Source: a virus. Taken from it: DNA of 41,260 nucleotides. A program made the position numbers and the translations under genes. The stretch covers positions 1 through 41,260 of IMG/VR virus record IMGVR_UViG_3300032287_002340, one strand, 5' to 3'. Every line of letters starts with the position of its first letter. Within the stretch, counting starts at the first letter, position 1. Below are positions 6,822-41,138 of the stretch, in pieces. The notes under the pieces were generated by a model. It was given only the letters and a program-made list of their open reading frames with translations. It made no database searches and was not told the DNA's origin.

Positions 6822-6861
6822 AAACGTTGTGTCGGTTGATGACGTGCCGACTGCACGGTTG

Positions 6862-24800: not shown

Positions 24801-27800
24801 CGTAAAGGGTGCTCCACTCCTCGCGAACCAAGGAATCACAATGGATGTTAAGATCAGCAACGGGTATCAGATGAACAGTCTGGCTCGTTACTATAATGTT
24901 GATCTCAACTCACTTCAAGATCTCACTCCCCCGCCAGTTGAAGCGGCTGCGGAGGAAGAGGCAGAGACTGAAGAGACTGCCGCCGTTAGCACAACTGGCG
25001 TAGTGGTAGCGCCAGACATTGATGCTCAACTCTACAAATCATTTATGGCTGGTGATTCGTCTAAGGCCAGATTCAAACAGAAGGCGATGGCTCTTACCGC
25101 AGATGACTTGAACTCCATGTCTTCCGCAGCTACCTCTTTCTTTGACCGCATTACAGCGGACGATACAATCACGCCCGAAGAGAAGAAAGGGTATCTCCAA
25201 AAAGCTGAGGAGTTCAAAAACAGAATAGCTCTGGCCTCTAAGATCATTGCAGATAAAGCAGAGAAAGACGCAGTAGCCGAACAACCCGCACTCACAGACG
25301 AAGAAAAGAAACTGATCCAAGAGGAACTCGATGATGAACTCTCTTCTGGCGGGGAGGAAGGAGCAGCCCCAGCGAAACAAGTAAGCAAGAAATCTAGAAC
25401 TACCCCCGCAAAAGCCGCTGCCAAAGAACCTACTGCACCAAAACAAACAATCGAATCAGGGTTTGATTCAGATAACCTTGTTTTGGCAGAGAGCGATATC
25501 ATTAAGAAGCGTAAAGCTCTGGTTGGCTTGTTTAACAAACTCGGTAGTGCGCCTGTAGTTACTACAGATAGTGGCGATATGACCCTAGAGGCAGCGGATA
25601 AATATAGAAGCAGCCTACAGACAGGACTTGATCTAGCTGACAACGAGGACTCGGCACAAGAGTATGGTTCAAAGCTCTCCACACTCCTTAAGAACATTGC
25701 GTTGGGTAAGAAGAAACTTGCCTCCCGTACCGCTCGACTCAGACAGAAGATCGAAGAATCTCTTTCCCTTGATGTCGAAGCAGACAGCGAAGCTACTACT
25801 GAATCTCAGAAGGAGCTTGAGTTTATTCTGTCCTCAATAACTCCGGCACTGAAACAACCAGTCGAAGCTAAGGAGAAGAGGATCAAGCGTGAAGCCGGAG
25901 AGGACTGGAGCACAGAGGATAAACTGAATCTCTTCCGTAATGAAGCAGAAGAGAAAGCATTTAATCAACTTGTTGATAATGGTTTTGTGATCTCCAACCT
26001 CTATGATTGGGGTGCTTCAGTTGCTGGTAAAGTACAAGAAGCACTAGGTCTCGGCGATGTCCTATTGTTCACTAAGAAACGATTTGCTGATGATCCAACT
26101 AACCCTAACAAGTATCTTAAAGGGAAGCATATCTTGCTTCGTCGAAAAGTTCTTGAGCGTTTCCCGCTTGTTAAAGTTAATACGAAAAGCACACCCGCTA
26201 AGACGAAGAAGAACTACACGAACTCAGAGACAGGGGAGTACAAAGCACTCGACATTCCTGTATTCCGTGACGAGAACTTGGATATCATTAGTGGTGGGTT
26301 TACAAACGATGTGCATGTTACGAGAGCACAGATCGACCAGAACATCGAGACCTTCATCCCAAAAGATCTCATCGATAAACATGATGACCCAAGTGATACT
26401 TTCAGGATTAATCAATCTATTGATTTTGACCGCGCCACTGGTAGGGTTATGTCGGTCATCGATCCTGTAACGTTGGAGCCGATCCGCTTCTCTGGTCAAA
26501 GTTACCATACGACTATGGCTAACTACGCACCGCTTCGCGGTAAACAGATGATGTCTTTAGTTAGTGCGATTATACCGCCGACAGCCTCTCGTCTGGTTAA
26601 TGCTGGCCCCACACCAGCAGGTAGACAATCTATCGAAGGTCGTGGACTTCCAGCTAAAGAATATATTAATGACTTCCAAGCATTCTTAGGTGGTCAATAT
26701 GTAGACGAGGAAGGTAACGTCGTTAAGAATAAAGGTAGGGGGTACTCACTCCTTAAAAGTTCCTTTGGGTTGGACGACAATTCAATCGCAGATCTATCTT
26801 CATACGCTCTTGCTGACTATGCTGTCCAAGTGTATGAGTTTGCAATTGGAACTGAACTAAAAAGAAGTCTAGTTAATGCGTTGCAGTTCGACGGCAATGC
26901 TGCGCTTGTAAAGAAACTAGAGAAGGCAGCGAAAGTTGAAGGCATTGTTCCGCCCGTTGTTGTACCCAAAGAACGAATCGAGTATATTAGAAATAGACTT
27001 AGCACAGATAAGCTGTTTGAGTTAGCTGGTGTTACCGTTAAAACGCTACGGGATATTAATCCTGTTAAAGTTGTATCAAATTTCTTCTATACAAAAAGCA
27101 CCTCATCAATCGCCTCAGTTATTCTTGAGTTGTACCCGCAGTTTTCTGGTGGATCACCACAGGCAGTAATTGCTAAGTATGCTGAAGCACTCTTCAATAA
27201 AGTAAACGACCCGAAAGGAGATCTCTATACTGGCGTCAAGAAAGCCCAAACTATTTTGGGTTATTACGGTCGTCTGTATCAGAAGCAGGAGATGAAAGCG
27301 GGTATTCGTAAAGAACAATATACCCCACTTGGTCCAGAGAGTACCGAAGCATTAGACAGATTGGTCTATACTGGCAAGCTAGATAATACTTCGCTTGATC
27401 CTTTATTCATGTCCAGTCGCGAGATGTATGATGACAGTACTGACGCTGCTATTGCATACGGCGACACCTTGCGCAATGAACTAATTAGTGCTGTCAACAA
27501 TACACCAGAGCTTCAGTCGGAGCTGCAAGATATTGTATCTCTATTCGACGAGGGGCTATCACAACGACAAGGTGCTAACCTTATTGATGCACTTAATAAT
27601 GTAATCACTAATCTAGGTGGCGACAACAGAAACGTTGCCCTCAGTATTGTGCAGCGCCTACGTAGGGGCGAGTTGGAGTCTGGCTTGAAAGCTGCTGGTA
27701 TCATGTCTGAGTTGGGTTGGTTGCCTCCTGTTGCAAACTTCACTGCGGTGCCGCCTACTGTAGAATCGCCAGCCGAACTTGAGTCACCGACAGCATCTCG

Positions 27801-30800
27801 TGAACGCCTTGCTGAAATTATTCAGTCCGCAAAAGATTCTTCTTATCGCGCCGGAGGAAAGACAACGCCACAAGAAGAAGCACAATACCGCCGTGCGATT
27901 GCACAAGCGGTTGAGCTAGTTCAACCAGAAGTACTCGCAGCTTCGGCTCGTGCCGAAGAGTTGCAACGCAAGGCCGAACTCCGTTCGCGCTACGCTAATT
28001 CCCTTGATTCTATAATCAATATATTCACTAGCCAAAAAGGTGCAGATAAGTTTAACGCTGTTGTAACCAAACTAAACAGCGACATAAAGAACTCACAGAG
28101 TAGACTTGAAGCGATCGACGGAGAGCTGGAAGATATTGGTGCCGACCTCGAAGAAGCAACGGCTGCCGTAGCTACGGCAGAAAGCCGCATCCAAAAGTCT
28201 CTGAAGAAAAAGAAAACAGAATCTGTTGATCCTGTTTCGGCTCGCGACATGGCAGTAAGCAATCTTAAATACTCCCAACGCGGAGAGGCTAAACTCCGCA
28301 GAGAGCAAGACGTACTCACCAAGTTCATCGAACGAATCTCTCCCATAGCTAATGCTTTGGATTCTCCAGCCAAACTTGATTCGGTCTTCAAGGCAATCAA
28401 TGATGCACGTAATAAAGCTAATCAAGAAGCTACGCACTACACTAAAGCGTCTCGACAGTCTTTGCTGAAGGCGAAGAATATTGCAAGATATACCGCTGCC
28501 GTGCCGACGTATACGACACTTACCAGAAGAGCGGCTGGTGCTGTAGATACTCAAGCATCAAGGGCTATCATCGATGCCAGAAAGTTGAAGATGGCAGCAG
28601 ACACTGAGAGAGCTAGGGCAGCAGCAATGCGTCTGTACGAAAATAAATCTTCGTTGTACAAAGCAGCCAACGATGTTAACAGCGAAGCGCAAGAACGCGC
28701 AGCTCGCCAGCAGAACGCTGAAGACATGCTCCGCTACGGTCTCTACTCGAACGACCCTGAGAGCGTACTTGACGCACTCAAGATCATCAGTAAGAGCAAC
28801 GTGGAATCACATCGTGAAGTTGCGAAACTTCTGCTGCTTGCTCCTGACTTTGTGCGGAGCGTAGGATTCCAAGTGGTTGATCTCCGCGCTGATTGGGCTG
28901 GCATCTACGACTCCGGCACAAACACCGTGCTCGTCAACCTTGCCGGACATAACGGCAGGGGTCTCGCCGATGTGTTGCTGCATGAGTATCTACACGCAGC
29001 GACTGTTACATACTTCAACAATCCTCGTAACGCGGAACAACGTGCCGCTGTCGCACGCATCAACCAACTCCGTGAGTTGGCTACTGTTCAAGCTACTAAG
29101 AGCGGCATGATGCGCTATGCCCACGTCCGTCGTGGTCTGTCTAACAACGCAGAGTTCCTTACCTACACCCTCACGGCCCCTGAATTCCAAGCATCCCTTG
29201 CGACGTTCACACCTGTCGGTCAGCGTTCGCTACTCAGCCGATTGGTTGATGCGATCCTGTCGTTCTTCGGTAAGCAAAACACGCTACTCAATAAGTCTGT
29301 TAAGGAGTTGCTCGACTTCTCCGAGATGGCTCTCGCCAACTTCCACACCTTCAACATTAGTTCTGCTCGGGATCTCGATGCGCTAAGTGAAGCAGCACAG
29401 GATATCAAAGCGGATATCGAAGATAAAGAATACTTCGATAGACTGATCCAAGACATCAACAATGATAGACCGCAAGACTTCTATCGCAGTGAGTCGGAGA
29501 CCAACAAACCATTTGATGCGCTCGAAGAAGTTCGCCGCATCATGCCAGCTGGTATGTCGATTGATATCGACGACACAATGGTCGGTGCGATGGGGGCACG
29601 CCGCAGCAAGCCGAATACTATTATTGTTAACAGCAAACTCATTAATGATCTCGGAGCTGGTCTCTCCCCATCAAACGCGAGGGCCGCTGTTCGTACCGCA
29701 GTTGATGAGGAACTCGCACACCTTGCTTCATACAGTGTGTTTACTGAAGAGGACTTTACAAACATCGCTGACCAAATGGGTGAGCGTATGCGTAACCTCG
29801 TGGCTGACATGCTATACTCGAACACGGAACCAGACTTCGAGACACGGCAAGCACTCATTGCTGCCGACCGCGAGTCCGGTGCCCTGCGCGATTCAGACCT
29901 AGCCGCTGAGTTGGTCCGCTCCGAGATGACACGCATGGCTGTGGGCCGTACTCGTGAAGAACATATCGCGTTCCTGTACACTAGCCCTTCGCTAATGGAC
30001 AAGTTCCTTGAAGCAGTAAGGGCATTCATTCAAACGCTGAAGGAACGCTTTACTGCCAGCCCAACTACTAGCACCGCTGCAAAGATCTCGCAAGCATCCC
30101 GCATGTTCCGCTCACTGCGTAACGGCGGTATCTTGCCGGAGCCGCAGCCAGCTACAGAGGGTGAGATGGGTGACAGCGTTGCGTTCTTCAATGTGCTCGA
30201 TGGCAACGTTGAAGAAGGACAGGAAGACCGTACCCGATTCATGCTTCCGGTTGCAGGAACCAACAAAGGCAAGGTCGATTCCTTCTGGCAAGCTGCTCAG
30301 AGAAAGATGTACGATCTCCCAATTGAACTTCGTAAGTTTGTCGATAAGCGCGACGGCACTATCTCCGAGATTGAATACACTCTCGAAGACTTCAAGAAGA
30401 CGTTCCCTAGACTCAGAGATCAAGCGGTTAACTCCGGCATCCCTATTGAAGACATCGGTAAGCTGTTAGGTACTACTGCTCCGGCTGTACAAGGCGAGGC
30501 ACGCAAAGAAATCCAACGCAAGGTTCGTGAGTTCAAGAAAGAGAACGCTGACAAGGAAAACCTTCAGCGTCTCGCCGAGGATTACGAGGCAGAGATCAGC
30601 CAGCCAGAAGCTGATAAGTTCTATGCTGAGTTCCGTAAAGATCAGAAGGCTCTTGAGGATAGCCTCAGAGCTAAAGGGTTTACACAGCTAGTCGATTATC
30701 TCGTAGAGTTCAGACAGCAGATCAACAAGTACAAAGCGGTTATCAACTTCGACAGCACCAACGATGTGTACCTTACCCGCACATTCAAGTTCTTCCACTC

Positions 30801-33165
30801 CGAGGGGTGGGCCCTCGCCGCTAAAGCTGGCGGTGTGCTTGAGGTTGACGGCAAGGTACTTGACTTCAACAAGCTGCGCGTTGCCGCTGCCAAACACTTT
30901 GAGTGGGAGGTGGAGAACGACGCTAAAGAAGCAGGTCAGACTCTTACTCAGGAACAAAAGGAACGCAAGACTATCGAGGCACTAGACAAGTATCTCCTCA
31001 ACCTTGAGAAGGAAGCTGAGGAATCCAAGCAACTCGGTGCAATGAATACGATCAAGCGTGACGTTAATCGTTTGCTCCGCAAAAAGGATTTCGATGAGCC
31101 ACTTCGACTCCTGCTGGGCGAGGTGACTGATCCGTTTGAGAACGCTGTCCGCACTATCTTCAATGTCGGTAGGCTCGCTGCAAACGATAGGTTCCTGCGC
31201 AACTTTGCACAGACTGCAATAGATAGCAAACTCGCAAATCGTGAGGGCGGTAAAGACATGGAGCTGTTGTTCCACCCAAGTCAAAACGCTGAGTTGGGCG
31301 ACCTTGCTGGTCTGTATGTCCGCAAAGATATTGCAGCTGCTATCCGTCAAGAACTCGGACCGAAAGGTAGGGACCAAGAGACTCGCTCGATGGGTGTTAT
31401 CAACGGCTTCGGTCGTGTGATGTCGAAGTTCTCAGGTCTTACGATTACTACACAGACACTCGGCTCGGTTGGTTTCTACCCCCGTAACATCTTGGGTGGT
31501 ATCGCACTGACAACAGCACAAGGTATCGTCAATCCGATCTACGCCAAAGAGTCTTTCCGACTTGCCGTTATGTCGAGCCTCCCACTTGACGCAGCTAAAG
31601 CTGACTCCAAAGAAACGCGAGACACAATCCGTAGGCTTACCGAACTCCAGATCTTGGGCGATGAAACCCGTGGTCGTATTGCAATGGACATGCTTCGTGG
31701 TTTTGCCGCTACGACAGACGAGCAACTCGAAGAGCTAGTCAACGACATTGTCGATGCGCAAACGTCCGGTAAAGTTGACAAGATCCTAACCAAGTACAAG
31801 ATTAAACAAGTAGGCCAATCAACCGTTGACTTCCTCGCCGGACTTAACAACATCATCGACAGTGCATTTAAGTTGAACGCATATGCGTACGAACTGAACG
31901 TACTTAAAGATGCTTACGGCAACACTGAACCGCTTGCCAAGTTGGAAGCTGAAGCGGCACGTAAAGTGAAGCTGACATTCCCGACACACTCGCAGCAGAT
32001 CAGCTTTGCCAAGTCGTTCAACAGATCGCCGTACGCTATGCTCGTGCTTCCGTTCGTTCGATGGAAGACGGAGGTGTTGCGAACCATACTTAACACAGTA
32101 CCGCTTGCAATGCAGGAGATCAACTCCGGCAACGAGACTATCAAAGCTCGCGGCATCAAGCGTATGGTCGGCTTTACTAGCACCATGCTAGGCGGCGGCG
32201 TGCTCTTCGGGGGTATGTTCGCCACCTTGTTTAGCTTCCTCACATCCGATGATGAGGAAGAAAAGGGTTCCGGACGTAAGCTGACCGACGATGAACTCGA
32301 TGCGATCCGCGATGGCTTGCCGAGCTGGCAGCATAACCACGGTATCTTCGCCCGACTTGTTGGCAAAGACGGGGTGCAGGTAATCGACATGTCGAACATC
32401 CTACCGTACAGTCAAGTGACAGACATCGCCAAACTTGCAATGCGCGGCAATATCAAAGGCATGGCTGACTACATAACCGGAGAACTGATCGGCACACAGA
32501 TTGCAGCTAACGCGCTACTTGAAGTGTCCAATAACAGAACCGATTTCGATCAACCGATTTGGTTGTCTTCGGACAATGCGGTGGTATCGTTTGGTAAGAT
32601 GATCGGACATGTCATCAAGGGTACCTTGCTTCCGTCTGCTGCCAAGAAAACTATTGAGGTACTTAGATTCGGACAGCAAGACAAGACGGAACTTATTGTC
32701 GGCGAACTCACAGGTGCTCGCCCGATGATCCATAAGATTCCTGACATTGAGTATCGAGCCATGAGTAAGATCAAGAAGTCTATGGATGAAACAGTTTCTC
32801 TGTTGTATCCGCTGTCTTCCGGCAAGGCATTCGATCCGAACGATGTCGAAGGTGTTATTGATAAACATCAAGCTGCATCCAACATTAACCAGAAGAGACT
32901 ATTTGATTTCATGACCAGCATGAAAACGATTGGCTCTACTGACGAGTCGCTTATGCGTACCGCTGCACAGATCAAGATCAGTAAGCAGCGCATGGGCAAC
33001 GCGATGAACGGATTGAATAGTCCGTGGGCACCGAACGATCAATGGTTCCAGAAGATGTACCAGAATAAGATCCGAGTTGGTGAACAGAACCCCGACGAAA
33101 TTGCAAGCAAGATCGCCGAGGTTGTGTCACGTAAATCAGATCAGTACAATTCAGCTATTGAATAA
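21802..33165 (+). CDS. Giant multidomain ejection / polyvalent protein (3787 aa)
   Basis: One uninterrupted frame of 11.4 kb. Residues about 1-230 are acidic; 230-870 are Ala/Gly-rich helical with mildly hydrophobic stretches (DIGLTIGTAGGFAGAKALAK near 515). Acidic/Pro linkers lie near 1040-1065 and 1173-1213. A long coiled coil is near 2100-2140. A zinc-peptidase domain has H2394-E-Y-L-H2398 with a downstream Glu in NAEFLTY (about 2450). A second, similar domain near 2570-2770 has EELAH (2636-2640). The C-terminal third is helical, with a membrane-type segment (LGGGVLFGGMFATLFSFLT, about 3460-3478) before a charged SDDEEEK. Giant injected phage proteins of this kind are described as polyvalent proteins or T7 gp16-like ejection proteins. 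A role in DNA delivery, with the peptidase cleaving cell wall or host protein, is inference. Confidence 0.85.
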   Translation: MLEIKSYDDWSEDEEELDADQVNNLKKYTDYVRSSYYKAGQLNDETDSEIQAGVADRLTEDGVFSDETTDEERQSVFSSIVGPKQNTDTDARFVFEHLRTGSEDTIDPNDTRSLTLSKYLTLRQAAPDQAEELRQSVDEILSDRTLVKRSKISAVDRGDYSMVAIDEDDGSRSLYTGSTAKPDSVPNEVDALLTAGAISSSDLYKVNSAVQSLNGGLSNVAEASRYEMFRNTVGNIAKNDSDLNSLIQSTAAGKKEEKVAELRTTGETILEGTKTAIAYPFVKLGELVYEGGAALMGKEEDKPKYAEGTKVSEVLASNKEIAKKFSAEEIEKFSDALTTKVAGAAYRADKPETGIATDSMGNTIIATQLLANKQEFEKAVAAAPLNADQQKQARVERETLLTQSAGDLKKVILDEEPDAAGVYAKAKADGLTDAQFVEQWVSDPKNYDGFNTRLEQFGKSAWKTLAEIPLGVAALSGNEWAAKEMGKMIDDQSRRQEYSRLFGDEYGLGFQIINTIPQVATDIGLTIGTAGGFAGAKALAKTGAASARSMLRTTSKFALSNVDETATAAFREASTVGGEAALGNAFREVGRSLATSFGENAPVFATSFVRSAGSTYGSIYNQLPDTMSHEEKHKNALGYSLASGLSTAVITTGMSALGKGGVEDIATKRIRAMLGGETDEAVLASGGRVVPVDKMNYRQAKAVYENLKNESVGVTDAAFQKAMRGAISSTYKNWVKTTMGGTLNEALEESIDQSIQMKLEDAALDKETPLSEKISQVFNAGLIGGALGGISAGATQFGPVKKSELSMVYEARASALEGVAKKLRETKSDATATFVQRQIDDARARANASLQADIQAEKAKEMRAQTEKMVDPNEKQLSNVEEEEMEMTMLGDLVGQRVSAAGVTGILETGDDGMMRITTKSGDILNLGSKYEKASGRVSAYPKLMTTAVAQDGVPAGTPYITRGKKDSTRIAMPAVTETNKPENFLGVIKDEEGNIQQLVVKGAPLLANQGITMDVKISNGYQMNSLARYYNVDLNSLQDLTPPPVEAAAEEEAETEETAAVSTTGVVVAPDIDAQLYKSFMAGDSSKARFKQKAMALTADDLNSMSSAATSFFDRITADDTITPEEKKGYLQKAEEFKNRIALASKIIADKAEKDAVAEQPALTDEEKKLIQEELDDELSSGGEEGAAPAKQVSKKSRTTPAKAAAKEPTAPKQTIESGFDSDNLVLAESDIIKKRKALVGLFNKLGSAPVVTTDSGDMTLEAADKYRSSLQTGLDLADNEDSAQEYGSKLSTLLKNIALGKKKLASRTARLRQKIEESLSLDVEADSEATTESQKELEFILSSITPALKQPVEAKEKRIKREAGEDWSTEDKLNLFRNEAEEKAFNQLVDNGFVISNLYDWGASVAGKVQEALGLGDVLLFTKKRFADDPTNPNKYLKGKHILLRRKVLERFPLVKVNTKSTPAKTKKNYTNSETGEYKALDIPVFRDENLDIISGGFTNDVHVTRAQIDQNIETFIPKDLIDKHDDPSDTFRINQSIDFDRATGRVMSVIDPVTLEPIRFSGQSYHTTMANYAPLRGKQMMSLVSAIIPPTASRLVNAGPTPAGRQSIEGRGLPAKEYINDFQAFLGGQYVDEEGNVVKNKGRGYSLLKSSFGLDDNSIADLSSYALADYAVQVYEFAIGTELKRSLVNALQFDGNAALVKKLEKAAKVEGIVPPVVVPKERIEYIRNRLSTDKLFELAGVTVKTLRDINPVKVVSNFFYTKSTSSIASVILELYPQFSGGSPQAVIAKYAEALFNKVNDPKGDLYTGVKKAQTILGYYGRLYQKQEMKAGIRKEQYTPLGPESTEALDRLVYTGKLDNTSLDPLFMSSREMYDDSTDAAIAYGDTLRNELISAVNNTPELQSELQDIVSLFDEGLSQRQGANLIDALNNVITNLGGDNRNVALSIVQRLRRGELESGLKAAGIMSELGWLPPVANFTAVPPTVESPAELESPTASRERLAEIIQSAKDSSYRAGGKTTPQEEAQYRRAIAQAVELVQPEVLAASARAEELQRKAELRSRYANSLDSIINIFTSQKGADKFNAVVTKLNSDIKNSQSRLEAIDGELEDIGADLEEATAAVATAESRIQKSLKKKKTESVDPVSARDMAVSNLKYSQRGEAKLRREQDVLTKFIERISPIANALDSPAKLDSVFKAINDARNKANQEATHYTKASRQSLLKAKNIARYTAAVPTYTTLTRRAAGAVDTQASRAIIDARKLKMAADTERARAAAMRLYENKSSLYKAANDVNSEAQERAARQQNAEDMLRYGLYSNDPESVLDALKIISKSNVESHREVAKLLLLAPDFVRSVGFQVVDLRADWAGIYDSGTNTVLVNLAGHNGRGLADVLLHEYLHAATVTYFNNPRNAEQRAAVARINQLRELATVQATKSGMMRYAHVRRGLSNNAEFLTYTLTAPEFQASLATFTPVGQRSLLSRLVDAILSFFGKQNTLLNKSVKELLDFSEMALANFHTFNISSARDLDALSEAAQDIKADIEDKEYFDRLIQDINNDRPQDFYRSESETNKPFDALEEVRRIMPAGMSIDIDDTMVGAMGARRSKPNTIIVNSKLINDLGAGLSPSNARAAVRTAVDEELAHLASYSVFTEEDFTNIADQMGERMRNLVADMLYSNTEPDFETRQALIAADRESGALRDSDLAAELVRSEMTRMAVGRTREEHIAFLYTSPSLMDKFLEAVRAFIQTLKERFTASPTTSTAAKISQASRMFRSLRNGGILPEPQPATEGEMGDSVAFFNVLDGNVEEGQEDRTRFMLPVAGTNKGKVDSFWQAAQRKMYDLPIELRKFVDKRDGTISEIEYTLEDFKKTFPRLRDQAVNSGIPIEDIGKLLGTTAPAVQGEARKEIQRKVREFKKENADKENLQRLAEDYEAEISQPEADKFYAEFRKDQKALEDSLRAKGFTQLVDYLVEFRQQINKYKAVINFDSTNDVYLTRTFKFFHSEGWALAAKAGGVLEVDGKVLDFNKLRVAAAKHFEWEVENDAKEAGQTLTQEQKERKTIEALDKYLLNLEKEAEESKQLGAMNTIKRDVNRLLRKKDFDEPLRLLLGEVTDPFENAVRTIFNVGRLAANDRFLRNFAQTAIDSKLANREGGKDMELLFHPSQNAELGDLAGLYVRKDIAAAIRQELGPKGRDQETRSMGVINGFGRVMSKFSGLTITTQTLGSVGFYPRNILGGIALTTAQGIVNPIYAKESFRLAVMSSLPLDAAKADSKETRDTIRRLTELQILGDETRGRIAMDMLRGFAATTDEQLEELVNDIVDAQTSGKVDKILTKYKIKQVGQSTVDFLAGLNNIIDSAFKLNAYAYELNVLKDAYGNTEPLAKLEAEAARKVKLTFPTHSQQISFAKSFNRSPYAMLVLPFVRWKTEVLRTILNTVPLAMQEINSGNETIKARGIKRMVGFTSTMLGGGVLFGGMFATLFSFLTSDDEEEKGSGRKLTDDELDAIRDGLPSWQHNHGIFARLVGKDGVQVIDMSNILPYSQVTDIAKLAMRGNIKGMADYITGELIGTQIAANALLEVSNNRTDFDQPIWLSSDNAVVSFGKMIGHVIKGTLLPSAAKKTIEVLRFGQQDKTELIVGELTGARPMIHKIPDIEYRAMSKIKKSMDETVSLLYPLSSGKAFDPNDVEGVIDKHQAASNINQKRLFDFMTSMKTIGSTDESLMRTAAQIKISKQRMGNAMNGLNSPWAPNDQWFQKMYQNKIRVGEQNPDEIASKIAEVVSRKSDQYNSAIE

Positions 33166-33614: not shown

Positions 33615-33899
33615 TTATTGTTCTGTTATGTTGTGTACTTTGTTTGTTCCGTCAATGAATACCCCGATCTCGTCAGCGACTCTGTCTTCGTGTGCTTCAG
33701 AGAAACCATCTTCCGGAAAGGCGCACGCCGAAAGCACGCACTCGATGAATGCGTTAGCCATTCGTGCGAACTTCAACGAGCTAGATCGTATGGACATGCC
33801 GTTGACATAGGCCGTGATGATCGGACCAGTTCTGGACGGTGCGGATTCGAGTGCGATGATGACGTGACCAGCATCGATTTGTGTCTGTCTATTTTTCAT
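33615..33899 (-). CDS. Hypothetical protein (94 aa)
   Basis: The alpha/beta protein has AGHVIIALESAPSRTGPIIT, then helices around LKFARMANAFIECVLSACAF and an acidic segment ending VADEIGVFIDGTNK. Two bases separate its stop from the next gene's start codon region. No family is recognised. It belongs to the leftward accessory block. Confidence 0.55.
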   Translation of the reverse strand: MKNRQTQIDAGHVIIALESAPSRTGPIITAYVNGMSIRSSSLKFARMANAFIECVLSACAFPEDGFSEAHEDRVADEIGVFIDGTNKVHNITEQ

Positions 33900-33918: not shown

Positions 33919-34599
33919 TTAGTACGAGTGGAACTTCATGGCATGATCGAATGCCTGACCCAAGATACCGGATGCAGGACCGTGTTCGTCAAGCATTTTG
34001 AATATCTCCTGTTTCTTTTCCGGCTGTATCTTTTTGATTAGAGACACCAGACCTAGCATAGAATCTGATCCACCTGTCGAGCTGTAGATATCAGATATCC
34101 CGTACTCGGTGTCCAATGAACCAGAGAGTATGTGGTGGTTAAGCGAAGTACTCGCGATCCCGTCGAGTGCGTCAGCAATAATTACGTTTTTAGTTTGGTT
34201 GCTATCAAGTGAACTCATTCCGTTTCTGTCTTTATCAAACCCATAGTGAAGACAGTCCGATGTCTCTAACCATAACCGATCTATCATACTATCTTCTATA
34301 TCTTTAAACGCCCAACTCCACAGCCCCGAGTGCACTACTTTTTTTAGTATATCGGAATATGCTGCGGCAACCATGTGCCCGTCACCGTAGTGAGCGTAGA
34401 CACGGTACCCCTTGACGTGGACGGCGGACATATACTGATGCTTCCTACTCGATGACGCATAAGAGTACATGGTGAATGAAGTTAACATTACCTTTGACCT
34501 ATTGCCATTAAGCATGTCGCTCTCCCACTCAAGCACTCGCTCTCGTATCTTATCAATGGGTTCTGTTTTGAACCTACGTCTGAACTCGTTTTTATTCAT
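33919..34599 (-). CDS. Hypothetical protein (226 aa)
   Basis: A basic helical N terminus (MNKNEFRRRFKTEPIDKIRE) is followed by an alpha/beta body with aromatic-rich strands (YMSAVHVKGYRVYAHYGDGH) and a helical C terminus (MLGLVSLIKKIQPEKKQEIF). Codon use looks more AT-rich than in the neighbouring VWA gene, which may mean separate acquisition. No catalytic motif is visible and no family is recognised. It is the gene immediately downstream of the MoxR-VWA module and could be a target or cofactor. Confidence 0.6.
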   Translation of the reverse strand: MNKNEFRRRFKTEPIDKIRERVLEWESDMLNGNRSKVMLTSFTMYSYASSSRKHQYMSAVHVKGYRVYAHYGDGHMVAAAYSDILKKVVHSGLWSWAFKDIEDSMIDRLWLETSDCLHYGFDKDRNGMSSLDSNQTKNVIIADALDGIASTSLNHHILSGSLDTEYGISDIYSSTGGSDSMLGLVSLIKKIQPEKKQEIFKMLDEHGPASGILGQAFDHAMKFHSY

Positions 34600-34629: not shown

Positions 34630-36054
34630 TCACAGGGCGGGGATCATTATGACCTCTCCGATTTTAAACTCATGCGCTGGCGTGCAAGTTGACAGCCAGA
34701 GCAGTGGATAGTCCACATGTGGAAGACTGTAGAGATCGCCTGAGCAACCGTCCGTCAGGTACACCATGACGTCCGGCTCGTCCACGTTCTTTGCTACCCA
34801 ATCGAATGCAGGTCGGAACAAAGTACCGCCACCACCCTTCATGGTACGCGGCACTGTACCGCCAGCCTCAAGGCTGATGACATCGGCCACCTCATGGGAG
34901 ACAGACAGCAGGTGCATACGCTCCGGCTTGAGTTCATCCAACACTGCTTGTGCCTCATCCAAGAAGCGAGCGAAGGTTGCCGAACCTACCGAGCCGGAGG
35001 TGTCGAGGACGAGCACGATGTCACCTGCCCTGCGGGTGCGGCGACCTGCGGATGCGAGGCCCGTTGACTGGAAGATGGGCGCATTGAATGGGGCATCCCA
35101 TCCGTTGCGGCTGCTCTTGGTCAGCCACTCACGGAGAAGCTCCGGCCAGCGGAGGGCAGAGCTTTGCGTCCTCTGCTCCGCCACCCGCTTTGCCATATCG
35201 CCACTCAGTCCTTGTGTCCGGCGGTCGATCTCGTCAGCGATTAGGATTCGGTCGTTGTCTTGCTCGGCTTTCTCGATGACTTCCTCTTTGGTGCGCTCGC
35301 CGTCTGCTTCCGGCTCGAACGTATCCGCTGCTCCAGTGCCGACAAAGTCCGACAGATCATCCGTACTGCTGCTTCCGTCAGAGTTGGTATCACTATCACC
35401 CCCAGCGTCAGGACTACCAGTATCGTTGTCTTGATCGTCGCCTTTGCTGTCTTCGTCACTGTTGTCATCGCTGTCGTCATTAGTGTCATTGTCTTGTTGG
35501 TCGTTAGTGTCATTGTCTTGTTGTGGTTGTTGGTCATTGTCGTCTTGTTGTGGTTGTTGGTTGGTGTTGTCTGGTTGCTGCGGCTTTGGTTTGCACAGCT
35601 CACGGTAGAGTTGCTCCGCCGATTTGTCGGCAGACAACTCTTCGTTGAGTAGCACGCCATCAATCAGGGGGAACACCTCCTTCTTGAGTTCGCGATTCCG
35701 CATTGCGATCATCGCATTGATGATGTAGTCGGCGGACACATTGGCGAGTTGCTGATCCTTGAGATCAGCTAACCGCCAGCCGTGACCGAGCAAGGCGTGC
35801 AACGATTCGTGAACCAACAGGAAGGCAATGAGGCCGGAGCCGTTAGGCTTCGATGCCAGCTTGTCTATGCCCTTGCGGTTGAGGATCAGTCTCACGCCAT
35901 CGGTTGCACCGTACGGCACAACGTCTGTCCACTCCCAACGGAGGGACATCAGCTTGCTGTAGGCGAGGAACCAATGGCGACTGACCAGCCGCATCGCAAC
36001 GGATAGCGGATGGTTTGTATCGAATGATGATGGATCTATTGTATTTGTTTTCAT
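34630..36054 (-). CDS. Zincin-VWA protein (DUF2201-like)
   Basis: The start is the ATG at 36054 (MKTNTIDPSSFDTN), downstream of the DUF3150-like gene's stop; the product is 474 residues. The N-terminal domain has HESLHALLGH (about 81-90), an HExxH zinc motif as in the DUF2201 putative metallopeptidase domain. A long Asp/Asn/Gln linker spans about 155-235. The C-terminal VWA domain has the MIDAS motif DTSGSVG (about 349), a Thr in GTLFRPAFDW and YLTDG (about 430). Such proteins pair with MoxR AAA+ ATPases as ATP-driven chaperones that remodel or load metal into a target. Both partners lie just upstream. Confidence 0.88.
   Translation of the reverse strand: MKTNTIDPSSFDTNHPLSVAMRLVSRHWFLAYSKLMSLRWEWTDVVPYGATDGVRLILNRKGIDKLASKPNGSGLIAFLLVHESLHALLGHGWRLADLKDQQLANVSADYIINAMIAMRNRELKKEVFPLIDGVLLNEELSADKSAEQLYRELCKPKPQQPDNTNQQPQQDDNDQQPQQDNDTNDQQDNDTNDDSDDNSDEDSKGDDQDNDTGSPDAGGDSDTNSDGSSSTDDLSDFVGTGAADTFEPEADGERTKEEVIEKAEQDNDRILIADEIDRRTQGLSGDMAKRVAEQRTQSSALRWPELLREWLTKSSRNGWDAPFNAPIFQSTGLASAGRRTRRAGDIVLVLDTSGSVGSATFARFLDEAQAVLDELKPERMHLLSVSHEVADVISLEAGGTVPRTMKGGGGTLFRPAFDWVAKNVDEPDVMVYLTDGCSGDLYSLPHVDYPLLWLSTCTPAHEFKIGEVIMIPAL
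35460..35590. repeat. Low-complexity tandem repeats encoding Asp/Gln/Asn linker
   Basis: Imperfect repeats of GTCATTGTCTTGTTG and TTGTGGTTGTTGG units encode the acidic/glutamine-rich linker of the VWA protein. Length variation by slippage would be expected here. Confidence 0.7.
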
Positions 36055-36073
36055 TTGTATTAGTGGTTGTTGA

Positions 36074-36949
36074 TTACAGACCGAGGGCAGCGAGAGTCTC
36101 GTCGGCTTTGACCGATGCAAGCTCTGCCTTTTGGGCAATGCGGACACGCTCATCTTGGGTAAGCTCACCCATTGGGGTGGTCGCTGCCTCTGCTACCATG
36201 TCGATGACAGCGTCGATCTCTGGCAGCTCAAGGAAGTTGAGCTTCTTCACACGCAGGGCTTCCTCGCGCAGCTTATCGAACTGCGTAAGGTGCAAGCGTG
36301 ATGCGTTGCGCATCCGGTCAGCGAACTCGGCAATGACTTCTTTGAGGTCATTGATCGGGCCAGCATGGGAAGCACGAAGCATCTCGTCAACCTGCCGTTG
36401 CGAGTCAGCACGCACGCGGTTGGCAACCTCTTCGGTGAGGCCGACAAGCACGGCATCGTTGACCGCAACAGGTTGATTGATGACGGTCAGGCTCATGGTG
36501 AACTTGCTCGCCACCTCTGTGGCAGTAGGGATCTGCACCTCATTGACGAAGCTACCGAGTTGGCTATGTAACGCAGTAAGCAAGTCAGGATAGGTAGCAA
36601 GGATATCCTCGCGAACGGTATCGAGTTCTGCCTGTGCATCATCGAAGATGTTCTGTACTTCGGCAACATCCTTAATGCGGATGTAGATACCTCCGGTTGG
36701 GCAGAGCGAACCACAGCGGCGGATCTGTACTCCGGTACGCTGTTGCAAGCTAATTGCCCGACCGACTGCCGTGCCCCTTGCAGTGAGGATCGTGTTGTAC
36801 ACACGAGCCGCATTGCGGTCAGCCCCTGCCGATGTCACCGCTCTCGCAGTAGCACTGCGGTTGAGGGCATTAGTTGCGGGTGCCGTGGTGCTGAAGTGGC
36901 AGAGCACGATGGATTGAAACGCCTTGAGTTGTGTAGTTGTAGTAGTCAT
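36074..36949 (-). CDS. Middle protein of MoxR-VWA module (DUF3150-like)
   Basis: The 291-residue, mainly helical protein has a Thr/Ala-rich N terminus. A beta segment around CGSLCPTGGIYIRIKD precedes long helices, including VQNIFDDAQAELDTVREDIL, VANRVRADSQRQVDEML and LREEALRVKKLNFLELPEID. Size, helicity and position between a MoxR ATPase and a DUF2201/VWA gene match the DUF3150 proteins found in the same slot in other phages. The family call is from context and general resemblance, not from a motif. It is probably the adaptor or substrate-specificity subunit. The start follows an A-rich leader (AATAGAAAGACAACATG). Confidence 0.6.
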   Translation of the reverse strand: MTTTTTQLKAFQSIVLCHFSTTAPATNALNRSATARAVTSAGADRNAARVYNTILTARGTAVGRAISLQQRTGVQIRRCGSLCPTGGIYIRIKDVAEVQNIFDDAQAELDTVREDILATYPDLLTALHSQLGSFVNEVQIPTATEVASKFTMSLTVINQPVAVNDAVLVGLTEEVANRVRADSQRQVDEMLRASHAGPINDLKEVIAEFADRMRNASRLHLTQFDKLREEALRVKKLNFLELPEIDAVIDMVAEAATTPMGELTQDERVRIAQKAELASVKADETLAALGL

Positions 36950-36988
36950 GTTGTCTTTCTATTTTGTTTGTTTTGTTTTGTTGTTTGC

Positions 36989-38059
36989 TTATGCGAGGAT
37001 GAGGTCACGGGATTGTGGATGCTCATCCAGAGGGATGCCTCGGCGAACGGCAGAGCGTGCACCGAATTCACGAATGTCGCCACGGCAACGGAGCAGGAGG
37101 GACACAAGCCAGTCGAAGCCGCCGCTGTGGACAGCGACTGCGACATCCTTGACGCCCCTTGATGCACCAGCTAGGCAAGCGGACACGAGGGCGAACTGCT
37201 CTGCCGGATCGTCCGATACCTTGAACCCGTCAGGGTTGGTGCGGAGTGACTCGATGTCGGGCAGCTTGTCCACATGTTGGAGGAATGCAAAGTAGGTACT
37301 TGCCGAACGATCACCGATGCTGCCTCGAACAGCTGATCGGTAGGCGTCCGTTGATACCTTGCGGATGGGCTCAAGCAAGGCGACTGCTTCCCATGTACGG
37401 GGACACGGATGCGGTGCGCCATCGTACGGCATGGTGATGGGCGGGTTGAAGTGGTCGAGACCATCGCCGCCTGTCGTACCGAACTTGAGGAAGGTGGGGA
37501 CATGAGATCCGCACGCTGCCAACTTCGGGTTGCTGTCGTACCACTCAAGCCAGTCGGATACATTCGGCTCAAGCACTACCTTGATGCACCGCTCGGTGAA
37601 CGGGGCGTCCTCCACTGCGGCACGAGTGCCGTCCTCACGCCTGTTGCCAGCGACAACGACGAAGACATTGGAGCCCAACTTGTGGGGCCCAACATACCTG
37701 TCACCGGATGCAGGGTACAGGCTACGAAGCAGGGCACGCACCGCAGGGTCGTAGTCAGGCAGCTCGTCGAGGAACAGCAGGATTGGTTTGTCACCGACCC
37801 GCTCGAAGGTGGGCCAGATAGTCGGCGCGGCAAACTTCATGTCGCCGTTGGCTTGTGGGATGCCGTAGCCGATCACCTCTTGTGGGCCTTGCCCGTTGAG
37901 GTTCACATACCACACCTCGCGCTCCATTTTGGTGGCGAGTTCATTGCACACGATGCTGGTCTTGCCAGCCCCGCCCCTGCCTACGATCATGAGGAATCGG
38001 TTGGCAAGTAGGGCGGCGTTGGCGATGGCTACGATGTCGGATGGTTTAATAGTTGTCAT
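36989..38059 (-). CDS. MoxR-family AAA+ ATPase
   Basis: The 356-residue product has Walker A GRGGAGKTS (about 27-35), Walker B ILLFLDELPD (about 93-102), and sensor 1 within FVVVAGNRREDG (about 138-149), followed by FTERCIKVVLEPN. The insert pattern after Walker A (WYVNLNGQGPQEVIGYGIPQ) is typical of MoxR/RavA-type ATPases. It should form a ring that works with the downstream VWA protein, using ATP to remodel a client. It is the first gene of the three-gene module. The leader (AACAAAAATAATATG-like) lacks a Shine-Dalgarno site. Confidence 0.9.
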   Translation of the reverse strand: MTTIKPSDIVAIANAALLANRFLMIVGRGGAGKTSIVCNELATKMEREVWYVNLNGQGPQEVIGYGIPQANGDMKFAAPTIWPTFERVGDKPILLFLDELPDYDPAVRALLRSLYPASGDRYVGPHKLGSNVFVVVAGNRREDGTRAAVEDAPFTERCIKVVLEPNVSDWLEWYDSNPKLAACGSHVPTFLKFGTTGGDGLDHFNPPITMPYDGAPHPCPRTWEAVALLEPIRKVSTDAYRSAVRGSIGDRSASTYFAFLQHVDKLPDIESLRTNPDGFKVSDDPAEQFALVSACLAGASRGVKDVAVAVHSGGFDWLVSLLLRCRGDIREFGARSAVRRGIPLDEHPQSRDLILA

Positions 38060-38365: not shown

Positions 38366-38646
38366 GGTTCCTCCTCTCTGAACTTCATGAATGCGTGAGC
38401 TAACCCGTCGATGAGTTCGTCGAGTTCCTCATACGGATTAGCCATCGGGTGACAGCTACCTTGAATGAACTCGTCGATCGGTGTCCACACTTCAAGCTCA
38501 CGCTGATCAGCGAGGGCTTCATGGTGTCCGCTATCCTCATCGGCGAGGATAGCATTGCGGATACGGCTACCACTCCAGTCGTCGTGCATCGACGAGAGGA
38601 AGAATGATGCCGCTAGTTTGTATGCTTTGTCGTGTATTGTATTCAT
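38362..38646 (-). CDS. Hypothetical protein (94 aa)
   Basis: The acidic, helical protein contains AYKLAASFFLSSMHDDWSGS near the N terminus and a C-terminal helix ELDELIDGLAHAFMKFREEE. It is linked to both neighbours by ATGA overlaps, forming a three-gene run. Function is unknown. Confidence 0.6.
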   Translation of the reverse strand: MNTIHDKAYKLAASFFLSSMHDDWSGSRIRNAILADEDSGHHEALADQRELEVWTPIDEFIQGSCHPMANPYEELDELIDGLAHAFMKFREEEP

Positions 38647-38882
38647 TTGTTTGTGTTGTTAGTTAGTATGAATCCCATACACTCATCAGTGAGTATGAAC
38701 TTCATGTATTTATCAGTGATGTCTTTCAACGCACTCTCGATAGCGTCCGCTCTGTAATTGTCTTCGATAGATTCGGCTGCCAGTTCGGCTTGGAGGCGGA
38801 AATCCTCGATGAAGTCCATCAGCTTTCGGGCGGTCTGCCCAACCGATTCGAGTTGTTTGTGTTGTTCCTGTGTTGTTTCCAT
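38643..38882 (-). CDS. Hypothetical coiled-coil protein (79 aa)
   Basis: The acidic helical protein begins METTQEQHKQLESVGQTARK and has a second helix rich in Ala/Glu (QAELAAESIEDNYRADAIES). The ATG is preceded by an A-rich leader, CAAATAGAAAACAAATATG, with no Shine-Dalgarno site. It heads the three-gene ATGA-linked run above. No known function. Confidence 0.55.
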   Translation of the reverse strand: METTQEQHKQLESVGQTARKLMDFIEDFRLQAELAAESIEDNYRADAIESALKDITDKYMKFILTDECMGFILTNNTNK

Positions 38883-38964
38883 ATTTGTTTTCTATTTGTT
38901 TAGGTTAGTGCTCCAACTATGCGGCAAGCTACGCAGTATCCATCATGCAGGATACAGGCTTCGG

Positions 38965-39164: not shown

Positions 39165-39842
39165 TTATTGGATAACGAATCCAGTTGTGTCATGCTTTGC
39201 CTTTCCTTTTGTAGTCAACCCGACGATGACTTTAGACGGGTCGAGGAACCGGAGATCATTCTCATCGCCGCTGATGACAGGCTTGCCCTTCCATGTATCC
39301 GGTAAGGACGAGCCGAACACAGCAGCGACATTGCCACCAGCCGCAAGCACTTTGGCTACATCAGCGTCATTGCATTCCGATCTGGAGAATGTGAGGTGGT
39401 AGTTGGCGGGAAACTCTCCGTTGATGTAGCGCAGCATGCGGGAGAAGTGTTTGGTGTAGTCATAGAAGATCTGATCTCCGAACATTTCTATGATAGCATA
39501 CTTCTCCCACATCAAATCACTTGTGAGGTTGAGGCGGAAGCAAGGCGTCATGCCGTTGCGCTTTGACTTCTTGATGGCTGCTTCGATGTCGTCAACGAGC
39601 ATGCCCATGAACTTGTCACGATCTGCAAAGAACATCGTGGTCTTCTTTAGTCGTGCAGTCTGGACAGATCCCATTGCACCTCTGCCAGCGGTATTGAGAC
39701 AGGCTTCACGACAGCCAGCAGATGAGGATGCACATACATTCCTGCCGGATAGGGATGCAGGAATCAGGTGCAGTCCGTAGGTGTCGTAGCCTTTGGACTT
39801 TCCCTTAAGGGTTTTGTAGTTGGATGTTGTCAGTAGTTTCAT
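39165..39842 (-). CDS. GP88-like phage protein
   Basis: The 225-residue product matches, at pattern level, the phage 'gene product 88' family (PF17338-like). A short N-terminal strand region is followed by three clustered cysteines (Cys37, Cys44, Cys48 in CASSSAGCREAC), an LNTAGRG turn, VQTARLKKTTMFFADRDKFM, and an alternating beta/alpha body (PCFRLNLTSDLMWE; IFYDYTKHFSRML; YHLTFSRSE). The cysteine cluster followed by a TIM-barrel-like order recalls radical-SAM-type proteins, but CxxxCxxC is not present. The biochemical role is unknown. It is flanked by a copy of the 70-bp cassette and by the two micro-peptides. Confidence 0.7.
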   Translation of the reverse strand: MKLLTTSNYKTLKGKSKGYDTYGLHLIPASLSGRNVCASSSAGCREACLNTAGRGAMGSVQTARLKKTTMFFADRDKFMGMLVDDIEAAIKKSKRNGMTPCFRLNLTSDLMWEKYAIIEMFGDQIFYDYTKHFSRMLRYINGEFPANYHLTFSRSECNDADVAKVLAAGGNVAAVFGSSLPDTWKGKPVISGDENDLRFLDPSKVIVGLTTKGKAKHDTTGFVIQ

Positions 39843-39869
39843 ATTTCTATTTGTTTTCTATTTGTTTTG

Positions 39870-39940
39870 CATGTTCATACCTATGAACCGCGTGCTACCC
39901 TTATTCCGCTCAACGGAATAAGGGTAGTGTCGCGAGTCAC
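39870..39940 (-). repeat. Intergenic cassette copy 1 (operator dyad + stem-loop)
   Basis: It contains GTTCATA-CC-TATGAAC (39873-39888) and a perfect 13-base stem-loop (39896-39926, arms TACCCTTATTCCG and CGGAATAAGGGTA). It ends in CGCGAGTCAC just after the Api92-like stop and runs into the A-rich leader of the GP88-like gene. It is shared with copies at 40457 and 41067. Confidence 0.85.
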
Positions 39941-39943
39941 ATG

Positions 39944-40423
39944 TTATTCTTCGTCACCTTCGGTTAGTTGTTCCATGTCATAGCCGAAGTAGTACACAGC
40001 GAACTCATTGATCTCGTCGTTGTCGTCGGTGTCCTCTTCGTGCGACATGCCATTCGATATGTGTGCCGTGCCAGCAAAGCCCATGCCGAACTCGACATAA
40101 CGCAGCACGAACTTATCATTCGGGAACTGCTCCGATAGGGCAGCGATTGCTTGGCAAGGCGGGGCCCACGCAGTCATAAAGGGCGCAGAGAAACCGCACG
40201 AATCAGACACCAATAGATTAGCAATTTCTCGCTGTTCATTCTCATCGAGATCCCACTTCGTGCCCCAATTACTAACTCTCCAGTCATACCATCCGCTACC
40301 TTCGAGTAGTTCAGGTGGTGTTGGCTTGATATTCTGAAACGAGAATCCATTCTCTTTCAAGTAGGATGCTAGTTCGGGGGAGCAGTCTTCGATTGTCAGT
40401 ATGTTTTCGCACCAGTTTGGCAT
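39944..40423 (-). CDS. Api92/DUF1281-like ferredoxin-fold protein
   Basis: The 159-residue product begins MPNWCENILTIED, the signature opening of phage Api92-like (DUF1281/YubB ferredoxin-like) proteins. It continues with WYDWRVSNWGTKWD (about 45-58), FSAPFMTAWAPP (about 78-89) and LSEQFP (about 96). The matching order of N-W-C-x-N, W-G-T-K-W-D and W-x-P-P makes the family assignment secure. The C terminus is acidic. These proteins occur in phages and plasmids with no established function. The gene lies between two copies of the 70-bp cassette. Confidence 0.85.
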   Translation of the reverse strand: MPNWCENILTIEDCSPELASYLKENGFSFQNIKPTPPELLEGSGWYDWRVSNWGTKWDLDENEQREIANLLVSDSCGFSAPFMTAWAPPCQAIAALSEQFPNDKFVLRYVEFGMGFAGTAHISNGMSHEEDTDDNDEINEFAVYYFGYDMEQLTEGDEE

Positions 40424-40456
40424 TGTTCTATTTTTCTATTTGTTTTGTTTTGTTTT

Positions 40457-40528
40457 GCATGTTCATACCATATGAACCGCTTGCTACCCTTATTCCGTTG
40501 AGCGGAATAAGAGTAGACAGCGAGTCAC
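40457..40528 (-). repeat. Intergenic cassette copy 2 (operator dyad + stem-loop)
   Basis: GTTCATA-CCA-TATGAAC (40461-40477) and a 13-base stem with one mismatch (40485-40515) are followed by GACAGCGAGTCAC. The stop codon of the 74-residue gene is embedded in this conserved end. The other side joins the A-rich leader of the Api92-like gene. Confidence 0.85.
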
Positions 40529-41045: not shown

Positions 41046-41066
41046 ATTTCTATTTCTATTTGTTTT

Positions 41067-41138
41067 GCGTATCCATACCATATGAACCGCTTGCTACCCT
41101 TATTCCGTTGAGCGGAATAAGAGTAGACAGCGAGTCAC
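41067..41138 (-). repeat. Intergenic cassette copy 3 (degenerate operator + stem-loop)
   Basis: The stem-loop (41095-41125) is identical in sequence to copy 2. The operator-like dyad is damaged on one side (ATCCATACCATATGAAC, 41071-41087), keeping only the inner CATA/TATG. The stop codon of the next gene lies in the conserved GACAGCGAGTCAC end. Confidence 0.85.

Follow-up and report, generated by a model that had tools for sequence, protein, structure and literature searches.

Three consecutive genes on the minus strand of the window, the whole stretch of 41,260 nucleotides from a freshwater phage that we analysed, encode, in order of transcription, an ATPase, a helical middle protein and a VWA protein (Table 1). 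We think it rather probable that their products form a single ATP-driven machine of the MoxR/VWA type, which is carried by mobile elements and acts in the early or middle phase by remodelling a client outside the virion. A sequence-only reading had described a MoxR-type AAA+ ATPase, a DUF3150-like helical protein and a DUF2201 protein with HExxH and MIDAS motifs; the three genes are as described, and both their conserved order and their proposed role as a MoxR/VWA-zincin remodelling module are supported by our comparisons. Machines of the MoxR-VWA kind are known from respiration, chelation and one archaeal virus; among the core features of N4-like phages is the metallopeptidase-VWA pair, still unexplained. 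The pair of a MoxR ATPase and a metallopeptidase-VWA protein has been described already (N4 gp24/gp25; jumbo phages), but we found in the literature no earlier description of an obligate DUF3150 third part common to phages and plasmids.

Table 1. Features of the module and its surroundings in the window
Feature	Coordinates	Strand	Basis
MoxR-type AAA+ ATPase, 356 aa, subunit 1	36989..38059	-	PHROG_1297 'ATPase', E 3.9e-46; profile reaches midasin AAA+
Walker A, residues 27-35, G.GGAGKTS	37955..37981	-	G27, G29, G30, G32, K33, T34, S35 invariant
Walker B, residues 94-99, LLFLDE	37763..37780	-	L94, L95, L97, D98, E99 invariant
DUF3150-fold helical protein, 291 aa, subunit 2	36074..36949	-	Profile-profile comparison, AlphaFold2, fold match
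Zincin-VWA protein (DUF2201_N + DUF2201), 474 aa, subunit 3	34630..36054	-	Pfam; start from relatives
Zinc-peptidase motif HESLHALLGH, residues 82-91	35782..35811	-	H82, E83, H86, H91 invariant in ten relatives
Asp/Asn/Gln/Ser-rich linker, zincin to VWA, approximate limits	35335..35589	-	Low complexity, poor conservation in alignment
MIDAS DTSGS, residues 351-355, site completed by T411 and D435	34990..35004	-	Invariant in ten relatives
Promoter-like/leader element TGCGTAGCTTGCCGCATAGTTG (TGCGTAGCTT element), then A-rich leader and ATG of the first operon gene	38914..38935	-	
Small ORF, 79 aa, first gene past the element	38643..38882	-	Operon context
Small ORF, 94 aa	38362..38646	-	Operon context; 4-nt overlaps with neighbours
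Small ORF, 66 aa	38165..38365	-	Operon context; several phages have relatives of it immediately ahead of the ATPase
Accessory ORF after the trio, 226 aa, fast-evolving	33919..34599	-	ORF real, has relatives
ORF of 94 aa, final gene of the run	33615..33899	-	Kept in most close relatives

The catalytic motifs of the two outer proteins (Walker A and B, HExxH and DxSxS...T...D) are invariant in the viral relatives. On the ATPase, which shows 58-77% identity in its relatives, Pfam AAA_5 scored 14.7 bits (cut-off 22), set against the PHROG_1297 match, and its arginine-finger-like residues are, like both Walker motifs, invariant in ten viral relatives. The VWA protein scores over the cut-offs of DUF2201_N (PF13203; E 2.1e-13, 50.9 against 23.2 bits) and DUF2201 (PF09967; E 1.8e-17, 64.1 against 26.4 bits). 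Because its relatives start only at what is residue 39 of the ORF as listed, we place its start at ATG 36054, 20 nt past the middle gene, and not at GTG 36168, which shortens the protein from 512 to 474 residues. PHROG_1314, the family of the VWA protein, carries the label 'HNH endonuclease', which we rejected, as its LUZ7 member consists of DUF2201_N and DUF2201. The DxSxS of the MIDAS site is retained in distant relatives, and HExxH is found in all 32 viral relatives; it is missing in 7 of the 51 bacterial ones, and proteolysis therefore cannot be the function common to all.

The middle protein is a divergent relative with the DUF3150 fold and not a member of the Pfam family. Pfam DUF3150 (PF11348) matches it below the cut-off of 24.9 bits (E 0.0023, 17.8 bits), as it does that of L010 (20.8 bits); profile homology and fold are nevertheless shared, hence the name that we use. 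Comparison by hhalign with true DUF3150 proteins from IncC-type and Vibrio plasmids gave an E-value of 1.9e-10 over 225 columns, and with the plasmid middle proteins 2.3e-11, while a control of alignment A4 against the DUF3150 alignment (A8) was negative. The AlphaFold2 model (pLDDT 83.9, pTM 0.76) retrieved, in a Foldseek search of BFVD, a phage 'DUF3150 domain-containing protein' at E 1.1e-7; the fold search of the PDB gave no significant match, nor did direct tblastn against GenBank phages give any. A profile also matched a kinesin coiled coil (E 6.7e-4), which we discarded as helical similarity. Pfam DUF3150 matches in two loci (L122, L123) were rejected as well, their ORFs resembling flagellar motor genes.

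Gene linkage within the trio is far above chance. With the VWA gene as bait we recovered 32 viral contigs, and the middle gene was present in all 31 that reach upstream; with the middle gene as bait, 16 of 17 viral contigs showed the ordered trio (the remaining one is truncated at its end), as did 50 of 52 bacterial loci, most of them from Burkholderiales. A VWA-domain gene partner of the ATPase is present in both the viral and the bacterial bait sets. Linkage across phages, on which the sequence-only reading had staked its proposal, is thus very strong. The trio keeps 48-88% identity among relatives and is under strong purifying, not diversifying, selection, with the middle gene as constrained as the ATPase gene (dN/dS 0.05-0.10 for both). 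In trees of the ATPase and of the VWA protein the phage trios form one clade, and a single joining of DUF3150 to the pair is not resolved by the deep forks. That DUF3150 accompanies the pair in phages as in conjugative plasmids also gives the machine a defined composition for purification.

The ORF of 226 residues that follows the trio had been put forward as a candidate fourth member, but we do not count it as core, because its linkage is confined to the close clade, it evolves fast (21-27% identity) and it is swapped between near-identical phages; it was not found in any more distant contig that bears the trio, and none lies directly after the VWA gene in two loci (L041, L045). Direct tblastn of its product against GenBank phages gave no match, and the fold search with its model (pLDDT 72.7) no meaningful one. 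Ahead of the run, the element TGCGTAGCTTGCCGCATAGTTG matches once in the window, with 0 matches expected in shuffles, and about 30 copies occur in related viral loci, every one on the module strand and some directly ahead of either the middle gene or that of 226 residues; its presumed function is that of a promoter or leader. The module and the replication genes occupy the same strand, the terminase and the giant gene the other one, and the module has the promoter-like element in common with the small genes ahead of it. Since the window is a fragment, with genomes of relatives reaching 66 kb, the expression class of the module is one that we infer. As for the phage itself, membership in the N4-like Schitoviridae was rejected, because its terminase matches two uncultured Caudoviricetes records only and the best matches of its polymerase are non-Schitoviridae; likewise, the 3787-residue protein was rejected as an N4-type virion RNA polymerase, as it showed no match in the PDB and no clustered motifs.

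These data bear on an alternative in which the trio would be a chaperone and protease for virion assembly, folding or trimming structural proteins. This was the published proposal for the pair in jumbo phages (Iyer et al. 2021; PMC7824862), and such a role has been shown for the tails of the Acidianus two-tailed virus (ATV), whose p618, itself part of the virion, binds the VWA protein p892 (PMC4124505); besides, the gene run is invariably tail-to-tail with the gene for a giant, perhaps virion-borne, protein. We nevertheless hold it unlikely, since a purely virion role is argued against by the carriage of the trio on conjugative plasmids, which make no virion, by its early-type strand and by the promoter-like element that it has in common with the small upstream genes. 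The job of the trio cannot, given those plasmids, lie solely in virions, and the homologues gp24 and gp25 of N4 are middle transcripts (PMC4193335). The presence of a version of the trio in many conjugative plasmids suggests a shared tool of mobile DNA inside the host.

The neighbours of the trio lend some credit to a second possibility, namely that it assists replication or recombination of the element itself and would remodel DNA-bound proteins such as SSB, the annealing protein, a polymerase or a helicase. The trio adjoins ssb-bet-exo on IncC and Vibrio plasmids, recT-ssb-toprim lies upstream of it in Simplicispira, and in LUZ7 and XC38 a helicase and a DNA polymerase directly follow the ATPase/zincin-VWA pair. 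In the phages of the window, however, the module is far from the polymerase and helicase genes, among small uncharacterised genes, and deletions in SXT of bet, exo and s067, s068 and s070, the last three being presumed counterparts of the trio, reduced transfer at most ten-fold (PMC2791158). We regard this possibility as conceivable but rather doubtful.

The same deletions, by which SXT transfer in the strain tested would depend little on the presumed trio, could fit a role in counter-defence, with the machine extracting or cleaving a host defence complex; so could its conserved carriage by both phages and conjugative plasmids and the fast-evolving, swapped gene behind it. Against this, none of the window proteins matched a known defence or anti-defence system among PADLOC models, and selection on the trio is purifying, so that we deem counter-defence improbable. 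The sequence-only reading had suggested either counter-defence or modification of a host complex; an early or middle, non-virion context is compatible with such host targeting but does not show it. More speculative still would be a general mobile-DNA tool of phages, IncC-type plasmids and Burkholderiales plasmids in which the DUF3150 trio is an ATP-dependent unfoldase-protease of three subunits that dismantles a host complex blocking incoming DNA, with the variable downstream phage gene tuning the target.

For the remodelling machine that we favour, NorQ-NorD offers a model (PMC13036017). By analogy, the ATPase would form a ring, the VWA domain would dock on it via its MIDAS face, and ATP hydrolysis would twist the adaptor and thereby remodel the bound client, which would also be cut where the zincin, a predicted peptidase, is intact. 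DUF3150, judging solely from its linkage and constraint, may be a third structural or client-selecting subunit. The context points to work in the early or middle phase, during establishment of the element and processing of its DNA, on a complex of host or element proteins rather than in virion building. In SXT, SetCD turns on the recombination operon together with transfer (PMC4344509).

Like the trio of the window, NorQ-NorD, RavA-ViaA and ATV p618-p892 have a MoxR ATPase acting with a VWA adaptor; unlike it, they have no reported zincin domain and no DUF3150, and they serve other clients. The likeness to RavA-ViaA that had been drawn from the sequence holds as an analogy only: in the PDB the ATPase profile finds midasin, not RavA, the VWA profile finds nothing, and no RavA or ViaA chain was reached by either at E 0.01. 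The pair of Iyer et al. shares with the window a MoxR ATPase adjoining a vWA domain fused to an N-terminal metallopeptidase of the same broad DUF2201 type, but a DUF3150 partner is unreported there and none was detectable in the PA5oct-like record that we searched.

Trios are also found on plasmids. That of Burkholderiales plasmids, which adjoins type IV secretion (VirB) or PRTRC genes, has three genes in the same order with a homologous middle protein, although this is 12-19% identical to that of the window and HExxH is sometimes lost. IncC and related conjugative plasmids carry three analogous parts (a CobS-like ATPase, DUF3150 and a CobT-like VWA protein) with HExxH and MIDAS, but ssb-bet-exo is interspersed and the ATPase and VWA proteins belong to a deeply separate, distant branch, so that an equal function of the IncC-type and phage trios is an assumption. 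It is these relatives that bring to mind the insertion of a cofactor or metal, as by cobaltochelatase CobN with CobS-CobT or by NorQ-NorD, because they match CobT in Pfam over the cut-off and resemble CobS, and because there is, near the IncC trio, a gene for ribonucleotide reductase maintenance. Their CobS match is, however, far below the cut-off (104.7 against 558.6 bits), the window proteins match neither CobS nor CobT in NCBIfam and Pfam (with a sub-threshold Cob-chelat-sub hit of 22.3 against 779 bits), and we saw no metalloenzyme client or chelatase subunit adjoining the trio; metal insertion is accordingly very improbable.

Finally, gp24 and gp25 of N4, which are core genes of Schitoviridae, encode a homologous ATPase (PHROG_1297) and zincin-VWA protein (PHROG_1314), adjacent or near to each other, with a short unrelated ORF that may lie between them, and differ from the window in that no DUF3150 gene was detected in the Schitoviridae records searched. 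Because N4 and the IncC-type plasmids are workable models, a core gene set that has long been unexplained is now testable.

The sequence-only reading had proposed a MoxR ATPase/DUF3150-like/zincin-VWA module in this linear virus record of 41,260 bases, and our analyses confirmed and extended it: three minus-strand genes lie where the module was placed. The ATPase matched PHROG_1297 (E 3.9e-46), with a score below the cut-off for Pfam AAA_5, and both DUF2201_N and DUF2201 scored above cut-off in the zincin-VWA protein. The GTG start listed for the latter, at 36168, falls within the middle gene; because its relatives begin at residue 39 of the listed ORF, we place the start at ATG 36054, which leaves a gap of 20 nt after the middle gene.

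Coordinates of the module and of the features around it in the window
Feature	Position	Strand	Remarks
226-residue gene	33919-34599	-	in related records: L006 8327-8941, L007 8327-8953
Zincin-VWA protein	34630-36054	-	trio gene 3; ATG start
Helical middle protein, 291 residues	36074-36949	-	trio gene 2
AAA+ ATPase, 356 residues	36989-38059	-	trio gene 1
22-nt element TGCGTAGCTTRCCGCATAGTTG	38914-38935	-	before first gene of module operon
GP88 family gene (PF17338)	39165-39842	-	upstream of module
DUF1281_C gene	39944-40423	-	upstream of module
80-nt repeat	39860-39939, 40449-40528, 41059-41138		ahead of three early-type genes
Giant gene, 3,787-residue protein	21802-33165	+	HEYLH motif at residue 2394

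The middle protein scored under the DUF3150 cut-off, and identity between the middle proteins of phages and those of plasmids is just 12–19%. Nevertheless, hhalign aligned these two groups over 240 columns (E 2.3e-11), and the middle protein with accepted DUF3150 proteins of conjugative elements over 225 columns (E 1.9e-10); a control comparison using the 226-residue family gave no match. Its AlphaFold2 model (pLDDT 83.9, pTM 0.76) found no counterpart among solved structures but did match a phage protein that bears the name DUF3150 (E 1.1e-7). Judging from profiles and predicted structure, the middle protein is a divergent member of the DUF3150 fold. In close pairs, the dN/dS of its gene is 0.05–0.10, a constraint as strong as that on the ATPase.

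Relatives with 52–88% identity lie on other IMG/VR contigs, and a conserved gene order across phages was found with two independent baits. With the middle gene, the order ATPase-middle-VWA appeared in 16 of 17 viral contigs, the remaining one being cut at its end; with the VWA gene we retrieved 32 contigs, and the middle gene was present in all 31 that reach upstream, directly preceded by the ATPase in most and swapped with it in one. Plasmid middle proteins retrieved the full ordered trio at 50 of 52 bacterial loci, which are mostly from Burkholderiales and hence not independent; also represented are Rhodocyclus, Dechloromonas and metagenome bins with the labels Bryobacterales, actinobacterium and Alphaproteobacteria. 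IncC-type and Vibrio plasmids carry true DUF3150 genes, situated with their partners among ssb, bet and exo. These partners are an ATPase of CobS-like type and a VWA protein of CobT-like type, the latter likewise containing HExxH and MIDAS; relatives of this DUF3150 occur in 1,168 plasmid records. Trees separated the CobS/CobT type from the DUF2201 type, whose side comprises the ATPases and VWA proteins found in phages and Burkholderiales; phage trios form one clade, and deeper forks lack resolution.

The 226-residue gene, proposed as a fourth member, did not hold that place. It follows the trio in close relatives, although with 21–27% identity while its neighbours keep 48–88%, and it was not found in distant trio contigs; in L041 and L045, two related loci, another gene comes directly after the VWA gene. 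L006 and L007 come from phages that are almost the same, yet their versions of this gene differ through replacement (59% identity; dS 0.95 versus 0.03–0.16 in neighbours); this points to an exchange of alleles under pressure from the host. Its model matched no solved fold. The gene is accessory, and perhaps host-specific.

The module shares its strand with the replication genes, opposite to the terminase and the giant gene; the latter lies tail-to-tail with the module in each relative long enough to tell, and its product gave no useful-score match in Pfam, PHROG or PDB. The 22-nt element is likely a phage promoter or leader: copies in the related records L030, L031, L033-L035 and L037-L041 precede small upstream genes, the middle gene or the 226-residue gene; all share the strand of the module and lie ca. 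25–45 nt ahead of start codons (consensus TGCGTAGCTT[AG]CCGCATAGTTGNAGC). Most genes at minus-strand starts (38882, 39842, 40423 and others) have no Shine-Dalgarno site and show A-rich leaders, where AAACAAATAGAAA is frequent (5 copies versus 0.03 expected). The 80-nt repeat holds a perfect hairpin, CTTATTCCG-N5-CGGAATAAG (RNA fold z -5.0 to -7.6); L030 has five copies, and L034 has palindromes of different sequence (TTAGTTAG...CTAACTAA) at similar places.

Sequence shows the composition of the trio and the conservation of its catalytic motifs. By analogy with NorQ-NorD (PMC13036017), the MoxR ATPase would form a ring on which the VWA adaptor docks and is twisted by ATP-driven action; the zincin would cut or hold a client, with DUF3150 as a putative third subunit. 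HExxH is kept in all 32 viral relatives and missing in 7 of 51 bacterial ones, which rules out cutting as a function common to all. At L027, L096 and a further five loci on plasmids or in genomes, the VWA protein of the trio has lost HExxH and kept MIDAS; the zincin can therefore decay.

A purely virion-building role is unlikely, because conjugative plasmids carry the trio yet make no virions. The recombination operon of the conjugative element SXT is switched on along with transfer (PMC4344509), and deleting s067, s068 and s070, which we tentatively infer to be its trio genes, lowers transfer at most ten-fold (PMC2791158). If that match is right, the trio is conserved yet dispensable in one laboratory host, a pattern that fits a role in establishment or counter-defence and fits redundant DNA processing as well.

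Within the open-access literature searched, the word DUF3150 did not occur in any paper. Related pairs have been described: N4 genes 24 and 25, encoding one AAA+ and one vWFA protein, are core in N4-like phages (PMC4193335, PMC7650795) and belong to the middle transcripts (PMC4193335). The label 'HNH endonuclease' on gp25-type proteins (PHROG_1314, e.g. 6468-7673 in the related record L004) appears wrong, as these are DUF2201_N plus DUF2201 proteins. Iyer and colleagues described a MoxR and metallopeptidase-vWA pair in jumbo phages, with a proposed role in virion assembly and processing (PMC7824862); for a virus, the precedent from experiment is ATV p618-p892 (PMC4124505). Genes for both the ATPase and the VWA protein are also present in Schitoviridae and a PA5oct-like phage, in which no DUF3150 was detected. 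The trio is a three-part version of an already known kind of system.
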